Shown here piece after piece: positions 7,299-12,533 of a stretch of DNA of 64,000 nucleotides (position 1 is its first letter; each line of letters begins with the position of its first letter). This DNA is from Aestuariirhabdus litorea (GTDB lineage Bacteria > Pseudomonadota > Gammaproteobacteria > Pseudomonadales > Aestuariirhabdaceae). The DNA lies in assembly GCF_003864255.1 (NCBI RefSeq), contig NZ_QWEZ01000001.1:1860001-1924000 (forward strand), read 5' to 3'. A model generated the notes under the pieces. That model made no database searches. It worked only from the letters and a program-made list of their open reading frames with translations, and was not told where the DNA came from. The position numbers and the translations under genes are program-made.

Positions 7299-7886
7299 CT
7301 AACCCTCATCGCGGTTGATACGACTGGCAACCGCGCCGCTCTGGTTATGGTACTTGGCGTTGGTCCGGCGGTTGTAAGGCTTCTCGGCGGGACCGCTGAG
7401 GGCTTCAAAGTTGATGGCGCCGATGGTCATGCCGGGCTTCAACGCCAGCGGCAACTTACCCCCATTGAAAAACTCCAGCACAATCTGCCCGCTCCAGCCC
7501 GGATCGATGCGATGGGCCGTCACATGCACCATCAGCCCGAGGCGGGCAAGGGAGGAGCGGCCATCGAGCCAGCCGACAATGTCGTCCGGCAGGGTGACCG
7601 ATTCAAAGGTAACCGCCAGCGCCAACTCGCCGGGATGGAGAAAGAAGGACTCTTCTTGCGTCAGCAGGATCTCCCGACTCATGATGGAGTCGAGCACCCG
7701 CTCGATCTCCTCCCGCGGCCCGCTCAGATCAACAAAGGGAGCGGTATGATCGGTAAAGACGCGAAAGCTGTTGCCGAGGCGCAGGTCCACACTCACCCCG
7801 CTGATCGCCTCCTCCGGTGGAGGGGGTTCGATCTGGATGCGACCCTGTTGCAGTAACTGCTTGATGTCCCGGTCACAAAATCGCAT
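7299..7886 (-). CDS. dcd: dCTP deaminase Dcd
   Basis: 195-residue enzyme that deaminates dCTP to dUTP, the main source of dUMP for thymidylate synthesis in this type of bacterium. Family signatures are visible: [13 protein letters not shown] near the N-terminus, [27 protein letters not shown] with the catalytic Glu region ahead of IVLEFFN, and the C-terminal [12 protein letters not shown]. The ATG at 7886 has AGGAGG 5 bases upstream. It starts 10 bases after apbC and ends 8 bases before yqaA, a tight operon. The apbC-dcd pairing is also found next to metG in pseudomonads. Confidence 0.96.
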
Positions 7887-7896
7887 CGCACGCCTC

Positions 7897-8991
7897 CTAG
7901 TCTTCGTTGATCGATATGGTGGGTGCCGCTACCGCCTGTTCGGCCCTCAGGGCCAGGGTAGCCCCCACCTGGCGTGCTACCTCACGGTAGAGGGTGGCGA
8001 GCTGGCCATCGGGCTCGGCCGCCACCGTCGGTTGCCCCTTGTCCACCTGCTCACGGATGCTCATCGACAGGGGCATCGAAGCCAACAGGTCGGTGTCGTA
8101 AAGGTCGGCGATACGGGTGCCGCCCCCCTCACCAAACAGATGCTCGGCGTGGCCGCACTGGCTGCAGATATGGACCGCCATATTCTCAACAATACCCAGC
8201 ACGGGCACGTTGACCTTGTTGAACATCTCCACCCCCTTTTTCGCATCCAGCAGCGCCAGATCCTGAGGGGTGGTGACAATCACCGCGCCGGCCAGCGGCA
8301 CCTGCTGGGAGAGGGTGAGCTGGATATCGCCGGTGCCGGGGGGCATATCCACCACCAGGTAATCGAGCTCGCCCCACTCGGTCTGGGTCATCAGCTGCTG
8401 CAGCGCCCCGCTCGCCATGGGGCCACGCCACACCACCGGGGTGCGATCATCGGTCAGGAAGGCCATCGACATCAGTTTCAATCCCTGCGCCTCGACCGGA
8501 ACAAACCACTTCTGGTCTCGCACCTGGGGACGGGTTCCCTCGGCAATACCCAACATCAGCCCAAGACTGGGTCCGTAGATATCGGCATCCAGGATTCCCA
8601 CCCGTGCTCCCTCGGCACTGAGCGCCAACGCCAGGTTAACGGCGGTAGTGGATTTACCCACCCCCCCCTTACCGGAGGCCACTGCCACCACATTCTTGAC
8701 CGACTGCAGGGCTTCCAGGTTGTGCTGGCCCGGGTGGGCAGCTACTTCAAAGCGGACATTAACCTGGGTGTCGGTGACTCCGTCCAGGTTGCTAATAGCA
8801 CTGCTCACCAGCTGCCCGATGGCGTTGCACAAACCACCGGCCGGATAGCTGAGGCAGATGGCAACCCTGACCTTGCCCCCCTCAATCTCAATCGACTCCA
8901 CCGCGCCGGCAGCGATCAGGTCCCGCTTCAGGTAAGGGTCCTGGTAATTGCGGATCGCTTGCTCTACAAGCGGACGACTCAGTTCGGACAT
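7897..8991 (-). CDS. apbC: Iron-sulfur carrier ATPase ApbC/Mrp
   Basis: 364-residue P-loop ATPase of the Mrp/NBP35 group that binds and delivers Fe-S clusters to apoproteins. An N-terminal MIP18-like domain occupies about residues 1-90. The deviant Walker [19 protein letters not shown] follows at about 100, with [15 protein letters not shown] as the switch region, and the cluster-binding CX2C is in HICSQCGH. Length and order are normal for the family. It lies 44 bases after the P-like gene and 10 bases before dcd, so the operon appears to join a replication-loader pair, an Fe-S carrier and dCTP deaminase. Confidence 0.95.
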
Positions 8992-9035: not shown

Positions 9036-9794
9036 CTAGGGGCGCTCCATCTTTTTCTTTAAATCCAGAAAGGCCTGGCGGCCAGCGGCGGGGTCGATTC
9101 CCTGCTGCTGCATACGCTGCTGCATCTGCTCTGAAGCAGTGCGTTCAAGCTCTGCGGCCAAGGCCGCCTGGCGTGGGTTCTCGAGGGCACTGGCCACCAT
9201 CGCCTCCAGGTCCTCCCCTTCGAGCACGCGGTTGCACCAGAGTTCATAATTCTGTTCGTAAAGAGGAAACGCCAGTCGCTGCTCCTCCCCGCGGAGGGTT
9301 TGCCAGCCGGTGTCCCGAGCCGCCAGATAGACCGCAATGTGGCTCCAGGGGTAATCCAGCGACGGGTGGGGGGCATTACAAGCTTCGTAGTAAGCCTGCA
9401 ACGGCTCCTTCAGGCCGTGGCGCGTATAGGCAGCGCGACACAGACGGTAGATCTCCGCCAGGTCCGGGAAGTACTTGCTGGTTTTGATCGCTTCCCGTGC
9501 CACCGACACAATCAGCGGGGGCGGGAAAACCTTGAGGGAAGACATCCACACCCGTTGCGCGCGCTCGCGATCTTCGGCACTGCGAAAAGCGTGTTTGAAT
9601 TTGGTGGGAAAAGCGTCTTCGAGCAGAGTAAAAAGCACATTGACCGCCTGCGAAAGCTCCTGCTTCTGCTGCGGGGTCAGTTTACGCTCCGAATCCTGGA
9701 TATCGGCGCGGTGGTCAGATATCGAGGGAGTCTGCCCAGCTGGTGTCTGTAAGCTTTTCAGCTGTTGTCCGATGAGGGTTTTGCTCTCTTTCAC
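9036..9794 (-). CDS. Lambda-P-like replication protein (putative helicase loader)
   Basis: 252-residue soluble protein. Residues about 48-125 (NVLFTLLEDAFPTKFKHAF, then RAQRVWMSSLKVFPPPLI and YFPDLAEIYRLCRAAY) match the pattern of phage replication protein P, which recruits the replicative helicase DnaB to origins. Residues 150-195 form a second helical block (LAARDTGWQTLRG...FPLYEQNYELW). No Walker A motif is present, as in lambda P. The only usable start I see is a GTG at 9794, giving an unusual 80-base overlap with the upstream DnaT-like gene; a later non-canonical start cannot be excluded. No other phage genes are nearby. Function is inferred from family resemblance plus the DnaT-like neighbour. 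Confidence 0.72.
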   Translation of the reverse strand: MKESKTLIGQQLKSLQTPAGQTPSISDHRADIQDSERKLTPQQKQELSQAVNVLFTLLEDAFPTKFKHAFRSAEDRERAQRVWMSSLKVFPPPLIVSVAREAIKTSKYFPDLAEIYRLCRAAYTRHGLKEPLQAYYEACNAPHPSLDYPWSHIAVYLAARDTGWQTLRGEEQRLAFPLYEQNYELWCNRVLEGEDLEAMVASALENPRQAALAAELERTASEQMQQRMQQQGIDPAAGRQAFLDLKKKMERP

Positions 9795-10143
9795 TCTGCT
9801 GCCGCTTCCACTGATAGATCACATGGTTTTTGAACTTGTTTTGCCACGCCTTTCGAGCCTCACCGGTTTCGAGCCAGTAGAGCTTAAAATCGGGCAGCTG
9901 TTCCAGGGTAAAGCTCGGGGGGATACCGTAGTGCTGTTGCAGCCACTCGATATAGGCCACCTCCGGCATAAAGTCTTCGGGCAGCGGCTCTATCGCAGCG
10001 CTGGAAAAGGCGGTCGTGTGAGAAGTGGTTTGCAGGGTACGGGCAAACACCGGCGGCACCGGTGCGGTGGCCGCATCGAGTTCCCACATGGATCCCCCAG
10101 CATTGAGCATTCGATGATAAGCCTTGTGATCGTCGTTACTCAT
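9715..10143 (-). CDS. DnaT-like ssDNA-binding-domain protein
   Basis: 142-residue protein. Residues about 57-113 (DFMPEVAYIEWLQQHYGIPP, then DFKLYWLETGEARKAWQNKFKNHVIYQW) match the DnaT single-stranded-DNA-binding domain of primosomal proteins: regularly spaced Trp/Phe residues and the terminal W-x-x-x-F...W pattern. The N-terminal 55 residues look disordered (Pro/Ala/Thr-rich). The ATG at 10143 is preferred over the GTG one codon earlier because GGGGGAG lies about 8 bases before it. It overlaps the P-like gene by about 80 bases and is first in the operon with apbC-dcd-yqaA. A role with the P-like protein in loading DnaB is inferred. Confidence 0.75.
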   Translation of the reverse strand: MSNDDHKAYHRMLNAGGSMWELDAATAPVPPVFARTLQTTSHTTAFSSAAIEPLPEDFMPEVAYIEWLQQHYGIPPSFTLEQLPDFKLYWLETGEARKAWQNKFKNHVIYQWKRQQSEREQNPHRTTAEKLTDTSWADSLDI

Positions 10144-10487
10144 CACAGCTCCCCCACTGACAACACCCCAAAACAGACTCCCGTTACCTTAGGTCGACTA
10201 CAGTCAGCCGCGGATCACCCCCGACCCGTCGACGACATTGACTATGCAATCAGACATTCTACGGCCTTGCCGCCAACCTTCGCCAATAGTTTTTTATTAA
10301 TCTCGGGAGCGCTCCAATTAGCGAGCCGCCGCCGCCAACGGCTCGTGAGGCTGCAGGCCACGGCTCGCGGGATAGAAATGGAGATGGCGATCGGTAGCAA
10401 CGGATGATCTACCCCTCAAAAGGGGCTATAATCGCGCTCCTTTGCAAACCACCGAACCAATCCGTCCACCAATCCTGACTTCTGTCG
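10144..10487. other. Divergent intergenic region, DnaT-like gene / metG
   Basis: 344 bases with no convincing gene. It must hold promoters for both directions. On the metG side a TATAAT is present (listed separately). A 7-bp inverted repeat CGAGCCG/CGGCTCG with a 10-base loop lies around 10322-10346 without a T-run. I could not identify the promoter for the DnaT-like operon. Confidence 0.6.
10427..10432 (+). promoter_or_regulatory. metG -10 element
   Basis: TATAAT in the context GGGGCTATAATCGCGCTCC, about 55 bases before the metG ATG. The -35 position has no good match to TTGACA, so the assignment rests on the perfect -10 and its location. Confidence 0.6.
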
Positions 10488-12533
10488 ATGGCCCCTATGA
10501 CGCAAAAATCCCGTAATATCCTTGTGACCAGCGCCCTACCCTATGCCAACGGCCCCCTCCATATGGGACACCTGGTCGAATACATCCAGACCGACATCTG
10601 GGTACGCTTCCAGAAGCTGCGCGGTCACCGCTGCACCTACGTCTGTGCCGATGACGCCCACGGTACCGCCATCAGCCTGCACGCCGAAAAGATGGGAATT
10701 TCCCCTGAGCAGTCGGTCGCCCTGATCAATGCCGAGCGCAAGCGGGATTTCGGCGAGTTCCTGGTGGAGTTCGACAACTACTACTCCACCCACTCCGAAG
10801 AGAACCGCCAGCTGTCGGAGTCGATCTACATAGCGCTCCGGGACAAGGGGCACATTGCCCGCCGCACCATCCGCCAGGCCTTCGACCCCGAGAAGCAGAT
10901 GTTTCTCGCCGACCGCTACATCAAGGGCGACTGCCCCCGCTGCGGTGCCAGCGGCCAGTACGGTGACAACTGCGAGGCCTGCGGCGCCACCTACTCGCCC
11001 ACCGAGCTGAAAAATGCCGTCTCCGCCCTCTCGGGCGCGACCCCGGTCGAGAAGGATTCCGAACACTTCTTTTTCAAACTCACCGACTTCCAGTCGTTCC
11101 TCCAGCAGTGGACCCGCAGCGGTGCCGTGCAGGAGGAGATCGCCAACAAACTGGCCGAGTGGCTCGACGGTGAGCTGCAAGACTGGGATATCTCCCGCGA
11201 CGCCCCCTACTTCGGCTTCGAGATCCCCGGCGAGCCCGGCAAATACTTTTACGTCTGGCTGGACGCGCCGATCGGCTACATGGCCAGCTTCAAAAACCTG
11301 TGCGAGCGCCGCGACGACCTCAACTTCGACGACTACTGGAAAGCCGGCAGCGAAGCCGAGGTCTACCACTTCATCGGCAAGGATATCGTCAACTTCCACT
11401 GTCTGTTCTGGCCCGCCATGCTTCAGGGTGCCGGTTACCGTACCCCGACCCAGGTCTGCGCCCACGGCTTCCTGACCGTCAACAACGAGAAGATGTCCAA
11501 GTCCCGCGGTACCTTCATTACCGCGCGCACCTACCTGGACCACCTCAACCCCGAGTACCTGCGCTACTACTTCGCCAGCAAGCTCAACAACCGTATCGAC
11601 GACCTCGACCTCAACCTCGAGGACTTTTCACAGAAGGTGAACTCGGACCTGGTGGGCAAGGTGGTCAACATCGCCAGCCGCTGCGCCGGTTTCATCAAAA
11701 AGGCGGGAGGCCAGCTCGCCAGCAGCGATAGCGAAGCCGAACTCTGCGCCGAGTTTATGGCCGCCGCCGATCGCATCGCCGACCATTATGAGCAGCGCGA
11801 ATACGCCCGCGCCATCCGCGAGATCATGGCACTGGCCGACAAGGCCAACGCCTACATCGCCGACAAGGAGCCCTGGGCCCTGGCCAAGCAGGAGGGGACC
11901 GAACAGCAGGTGGCCGACATCTGTTCCGTAGGGATCAACCTGTTCCGCCTGTTAATGATTTACCTCAAGCCGGTGCTGCCCGCGCTGGTGGCCAACGCCG
12001 AGCAGTTCCTCAACGTTGAGCCCCTGCGCTGGAGCGATGCCACTGAGCTGCTGACGGCGGGCCACAGCATCAACAAGTTCAAGCCCCTGCTGACCCGGGT
12101 CGAGAGCGACAAGGTAGCCGCCATGGTCGAAGCTTCCAAAGAGCTTCTGGCCGAGCAGAGCACCCCCAAGGTCGCGGATACCGAACTCTCCCGCGACCCT
12201 ATCACCGAGGAGATCGAATACCCCGACTTCGCCAGGGTCGACCTGCGGGTGGCGCGCATCGCCAAGGCCCAGCATGTGGAGGGGGCCGACAAGTTGCTGC
12301 AACTGACCCTGGATCTGGGGGGTGAAACCCGTAACGTCTTTGCCGGCATCAAAAGCGCCTACAGCCCCGAGCAGCTCGAAGGCAAGCTCACTGTGATGGT
12401 GGCCAACCTCAAGCCCCGCAAGATGAAGTTCGGCCTTTCCGAGGGGATGGTGCTGGCGGCCGGCCCCGGAGGTAAGGAGCTGTGGATTCTGGAACCCCAC
12501 GAGGGAGCACAGCCGGGGATGCGTATCTGCTAG
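10488..12533 (+). CDS. metG: Methionyl-tRNA synthetase
   Basis: 681-residue class I aminoacyl-tRNA synthetase charging tRNA-Met. The HIGH-equivalent is in [11 protein letters not shown] at about residue 20, the zinc knuckle [18 protein letters not shown] near 150, and KMSKSRGT at about residue 336. The C-terminal 100 residues are an EMAP/Trbp111-like tRNA-binding domain ([20 protein letters not shown]), so this is the long dimeric form. An alternative ATG at 10497 would remove three residues; neither has a clear ribosome site. It is monocistronic and divergent from the apbC-dcd operon. Confidence 0.97.

Follow-up and report, generated by a model that had tools for sequence, protein, structure and literature searches.

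Helicase loading is essential, yet the loader protein has been swapped several times among bacteria. A third helicase matchmaker, DopC/DopE, derived from phage lambda O/P, was reportedly proposed by Brezellec et al. in 2017 in Genome Biol Evol. DopE has been named as a helicase-loader family (PMC13326638). Lambda P binds the DnaB ring and keeps it open without binding or hydrolyzing ATP, and its eviction, which is helped by the DnaK/DnaJ/GrpE chaperones, is required (PMC6391071). P. aeruginosa requires DciA for initiation, and the Cellvibrionales and three Oceanospirillales species were found to be without DciA and DnaC/I (PMC5109545). Here we describe a chromosomal gene pair of Aestuariirhabdus litorea which, judging from its sequence and from structural modeling, very probably loads the replicative helicase as a resident system of the DopC/DopE type that has replaced DciA.

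The dopC/dopE pair lies between apbC and metG

The pair is on the minus strand of the window, by which we mean the whole 64,000-nt stretch of DNA that was analyzed. The dopE-like gene (9036..9794) has a GTG start and encodes a putative lambda-P-type helicase loader of 252 aa. The dopC-like gene (9715..10146) has a GTG start with an ATG at 10143 and encodes a 143-aa protein with a DnaT domain at residues 54-120 and a C-terminal tail. The two overlap out of frame by 80 nt (9715..9794), and this stretch codes for both the DopC tail, EKLTDTSWADSLDI, and the DopE N-terminus with the sequence TPAGQT; the first-pass annotation had located the minus-strand pair correctly and had put the overlap at about 80 bases. 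The pair is upstream of apbC (Mrp; 7897..8991, minus strand; PF10609, 336.5 bits), downstream of which is dcd (7299..7886, minus strand; PF22769, 141 bits), and is divergent from metG (10488..12533, plus strand), which matches E. coli metG and adjoins the pair in related loci. The E. coli genes apbC and metG are divergent neighbors 131 bp apart with nothing between them, so that the pair sits within an otherwise simple divergent arrangement.

We found no tRNA and no att-like repeat in the window and no phage gene adjoining the pair, the neighbors being housekeeping genes, and the pair is not surrounded by a prophage. These surroundings support the earlier suggestion that the pair was domesticated in a housekeeping locus. 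The core dcd-apbC-metG order that had also been proposed is not invariant. While dcd lies between apbC and a yqaA-like gene in the window and is present in most Endozoicomonadaceae loci, no dcd match was found between these two genes in L039, L049 and L050, which belong to the two sister genomes of the genus. When the pair was compared with its counterparts in two sister genomes, identity was 72-81% for the P protein and 70-78% for the DnaT protein, dN was 0.15-0.27 with synonymous change saturated, which precludes a dN/dS ratio, and the overlap was again exactly 80 nt in both. The identity, the dN and the exactly kept overlap rule out a chance ORF pair, and the pair is under purifying selection. 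NCBIfam contained no model for either the DopE-like or the DopC-like protein, and sequence searches of the PDB with the single window proteins returned nothing meaningful; a profile of P-like proteins was required.

DopE is assigned to the lambda P family

PF06992 (replication protein P) matched residues 50-197 of DopE with 33.2 bits (cut-off 26), and the window protein also matched PHROG 109, 'P-like helicase loader', with an E-value of 1.1e-22. The profile built from P-like proteins detected lambda P (E = 4.5e-5) and SPP1 G39P (E = 0.0016) in the PDB. When the AlphaFold (AF2) model of DopE (pLDDT 71.6) was searched with Foldseek, the sole significant match was 9oa1, lambda P in the DnaB complex (E = 8e-4). 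A second aligner (VIA) gave a Z of 9.6 and an rmsd of 7.0 with 157 residues aligned for lambda P, and it placed DopE residues 46-117 on SPP1 G39P with a Z of 8.8 and an rmsd of 1.8 over 67 residues; both ranked well above the remaining structures. Since helical proteins can reach middling Z values by chance, the fold call rests on the agreement of the sequence profile with Foldseek, and by these two measures DopE has the family and fold of lambda P. The translations of the pair contained no Walker A motif (GxxxxGK[ST]), as had been noted in the first pass, and matched no AAA family, which sets them apart from the AAA+ DnaC/DnaI loaders. ATP-free loading, which had been suggested on the same ground, is likely by analogy, given that lambda P neither binds nor hydrolyzes ATP (PMC6391071).

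DopC combines a single DnaT domain with a conserved tail

The window DopC matched PF17948 (DnaT domain) with 72.2 bits against a cut-off of 25, and with the PF06992 match this bears out the two identities that the first-pass annotation had proposed for profile search. On the other side, PF04492, the N-terminal origin-binding domain of lambda O, was matched by lambda O, PAJU2 O and one copy from the relative G036 and had no match in the window DopC. The DopC model was of low confidence (pLDDT 61) and yielded no usable fold match. Alignment identified the DnaT domain and the tail as the two well-conserved parts of the protein. The tail motif [DN]x[SDEGN]W ended DopC in all 38 of the 38 cellular loci scored, mostly as (L/H)TDxSWA, and also occurs in 8 of 11 O proteins from phages or prophages, those of lambda (LDLTNTDWIYGVDL) and PAJU2 (ANDTSWAVGL) included; of all ORF ends in this DNA, about 3% match it, the DopC proteins themselves counted in.

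The cellular overlap DNA, mostly 80-107 nt long, also encodes in the other frame the DopE N-terminus with T-AG-T; the O/P overlap in lambda, PAJU2 and VW-6S is 1-4 nt. Because the motif occurs in phage O proteins that have no long overlap, we consider it to be DopC's own and the DopE N-terminus to be overprinted. Lambda O reportedly binds P through its C-terminal part, and for this reason we read the tail, by analogy, as a putative DopE-docking peptide. A long overlap was considered as a cell-only trait and rejected, since Halomonas phage QHHSV-1 has a long O/P overlap too; its O gene (L179 1094-2422) is unannotated and encodes a DnaT domain and the sequence NDLSWADGM. The phage record annotates opposite-strand ORFs in its place. 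The long overlap is therefore no proof of a single domestication and, on the basis of this phage, may have begun in phage. The DopC proteins of Parendozoicomonas and Sansalvadorimonas (L043 233-1207 and L044 4079-5092) carry a long Gln-rich, coiled-coil-like N-terminal extension before a single DnaT domain.

Distribution of the pair in the order

Across Aestuariirhabdus and Endozoicomonadaceae, the pair is conserved along with its synteny. It adjoins apbC in ten related loci, including those of Kistimonas, Endozoicomonas, Parendozoicomonas and Sansalvadorimonas. Among the apbC-linked loci whose contig extends far enough, the majority have the pair facing metG. Other genera of the order carry the pair elsewhere, often beside radA, and in six loci dnaB is in the same contig stretch, so that it is widespread and no isolated oddity. 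This radA/dnaB-linked form, which we take to be the published DopE, is accompanied by a DopC of about 390 aa that had three DnaT domains in each of the three proteins examined. The window form is thus a reduced DopC, with 143 aa and one DnaT domain, at a different locus. The relative G036 has, besides its resident pair, four extra phage-like O/P pairs (L073-L076) with overlaps of at most 4 nt.

The pair and DciA exclude each other

We surveyed the co-occurrence of the P-like gene with dciA, a check that had been proposed at the outset. Among 38 relatives, the P-like gene or pair was present in 24 and DciA in 12, with no genome having both. In an order-wide sample of 293 genomes with a completeness of at least 95%, P was found in 184 and DciA in 91, and four genomes had both. 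The P matches in these four were all weak (E = 2.1e-26, 9.1e-6, 4.8e-7 and 4.5e-31), and from their scores they look like prophage copies. The remaining 180 P genes were strong, resident-type matches (E of 1.9e-45 or better), and none shared a genome with DciA. The exclusion had a Fisher p of 8e-48, a value that ignores relatedness among the genomes; since it follows a few deep lineages, the independent events are few. Neither loader was detected in 22 of the 293 genomes at these thresholds, indicating that absence calls are imperfect; in G037, for instance, a divergent candidate for DciA lies in the syntenic position. When 232 genomes were sampled across the class, P matches with E of 1e-45 or lower occurred outside the order in two genomes only. 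In these two (G439 and G522; loci L111 and L112), of 1.2-1.3 Mb, DciA was likewise undetected, and the resident-like DopE is accompanied by a partner that has the tail.

A search of the window genome gave no DciA match even at an E-value of 10. Between lpxC and the genes for the M23 peptidase and SecA, where dciA lies in L164, L166 and L167, this genome has an empty gap of only 272 bp. No DnaC-like ATPase was found in this genome, the only PF01695 match being a 516-aa DnaA-like frame. A weak DciA-like match in G027 (E = 0.05) was rejected, as it overlaps an nqrF-like frame. The first-pass annotation had suggested that the pair might complement DciA; given that DciA is undetected in the genome and that the two are mutually exclusive across the order, replacement is the better reading.

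It is improbable that the pair is a loader for PriA-dependent replication restart only, comparable to DnaT/DnaC, with something else loading at the origin. E. coli DnaT is a restart protein, and in the window genome PriA was present and PriC was not detected. However, our search of that genome found no other loader, and since DciA is indispensable for initiation in P. aeruginosa (PMC5109545), its mutual exclusion with the pair points to loading at the origin as well. Lambda P sequesters DnaB and is toxic on expression (PMC3640518; PMC4926192), and the pair could by the same token be an anti-phage decoy, hindering incoming lambdoid phages or tying up DnaB; we regard this as very improbable, since near-universal presence in whole families and the exclusion of DciA fit an essential role and not a patchy defense gene.

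Descent of the pair

In the DopE tree, the window form (100/98) was sister to the radA/dnaB-linked form (98/95), and together they excluded all phage and prophage P proteins (98/94); a grouping of the window form with PAJU2-type phages was rejected (p = 1e-4). By these sequence relationships, along with the common tail and overlap, the window pair shares its descent with the pairs of related genera. Searches of IMG/VR and of a phage collection returned no close viral relative of the pair, and a plasmid search gave one distant match only. The least probable reading is that the pair was left behind in a housekeeping locus by a prophage or plasmid and has no host role, for although P and DnaT-domain proteins are phage families and G036 has several phage-like copies elsewhere, the pair occupies the same locus in ten related loci, is conserved in sister genomes under purifying selection, and has neither phage genes or att repeats around it nor a close viral relative in these collections.

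A third group (G027 and G006), with no detectable DciA and with housekeeping surroundings, was placed apart, near a Halomonas phage, with weak support and is possibly a second, separate domestication; a topology with all resident forms on one side was not rejected (p = 0.26). Its O/P-like pair (L066 7440-8982 and L070 7413-9057) is divergent, and the partner ends in DxDW. In the DnaB tree, hosts of the window form were nearer to the DciA-bearing G021 than to most hosts of the other form (98/93), a marginal result on testing: the single-gene DnaB host trees rejected one clade of both forms at p = 0.03 only and did not reject a clade of both forms plus the third group (p = 0.10). On these marginal tests, the pair may have originated by transfer, by separate capture of related phage pairs or by one old gain.

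Proposed mechanism

For the preferred reading, a resident loader in the place of DciA, we infer that DopE binds DnaB and opens its ring, that DopC binds ssDNA and docks through its tail, and that the pair is essential. Because the two are homologous, DopE should act as lambda P does: it would bind the DnaB ring in the lambda P manner, open it without ATP and later be displaced. Through its DnaT domain, DopC would hold ssDNA where the origin has melted, and possibly where PriA restarts replication, and its C-terminal (L/H)TDxSWA tail would recruit the complex of DopE and DnaB. As the window DopC is without an O-type origin-binding domain, targeting through melted ssDNA or through contact with DnaA/PriA is more likely than targeting through iterons. 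We tentatively propose, as a minimal loader that may fall somewhat short of probable, that a DopC with one ssDNA domain and a docking tail suffices for DnaB delivery, that an origin-specific dsDNA-binding domain is dispensable, that the tail is the peptide by which O docks on P, retained from lambda through to chromosomal pairs, and that the pair was gained by transfer or separate domestication. The pair offers a compact example, open to testing, of helicase loading taken over by a phage system, with a defined candidate docking peptide common to lambda O and chromosomal DopC. The order-wide exclusion of DciA suggests that these families have nearly completed the swap.

Comparison with known systems

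The resemblance to SPP1 G39P, on which DopE residues 46-117 superpose, is confined to the N-terminal domain, and PF11417 scored 12.7 bits, below its cut-off of 22. DciA, which is found in related lineages of the order, probably has the same cellular task; it is unrelated in sequence and never occurred together with a strong, resident-type DopE in the sampled genomes. E. coli DnaT and the window DopC have in common the PF17948 DNA-binding domain family, but E. coli DnaT works with PriA/PriB and DnaC whereas the window protein is partnered by a P-type loader. Lambda O/P is like the window pair in the family and fold of P and in an O-type partner with a C-terminal [DN]x[SD]W tail, with which lambda O ends (LDLTNTDWIYGVDL). 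It differs in that lambda O has the PF04492 N-terminal origin-binding domain that the window DopC is without, and in the O/P overlap, which is 4 nt in lambda and 80 nt in the window pair.

The closest likeness is to DopC/DopE, a chromosomal O/P-type pair of a P-type loader and its partner in genomes without DciA or DnaC/I; the window pair is likewise chromosomal, stable in its lineage and outside prophage. Relative to the radA/dnaB-linked DopC, the window DopC of 143 aa has one DnaT domain, no N-terminal domain and a metG-apbC locus. Substitution of the loader is known in kind from the DopC/DopE proposal, and what this analysis adds to it is the reduced DopC and where it lies, together with the tail that phage O has in common with it and the broad count of exclusion with DciA.
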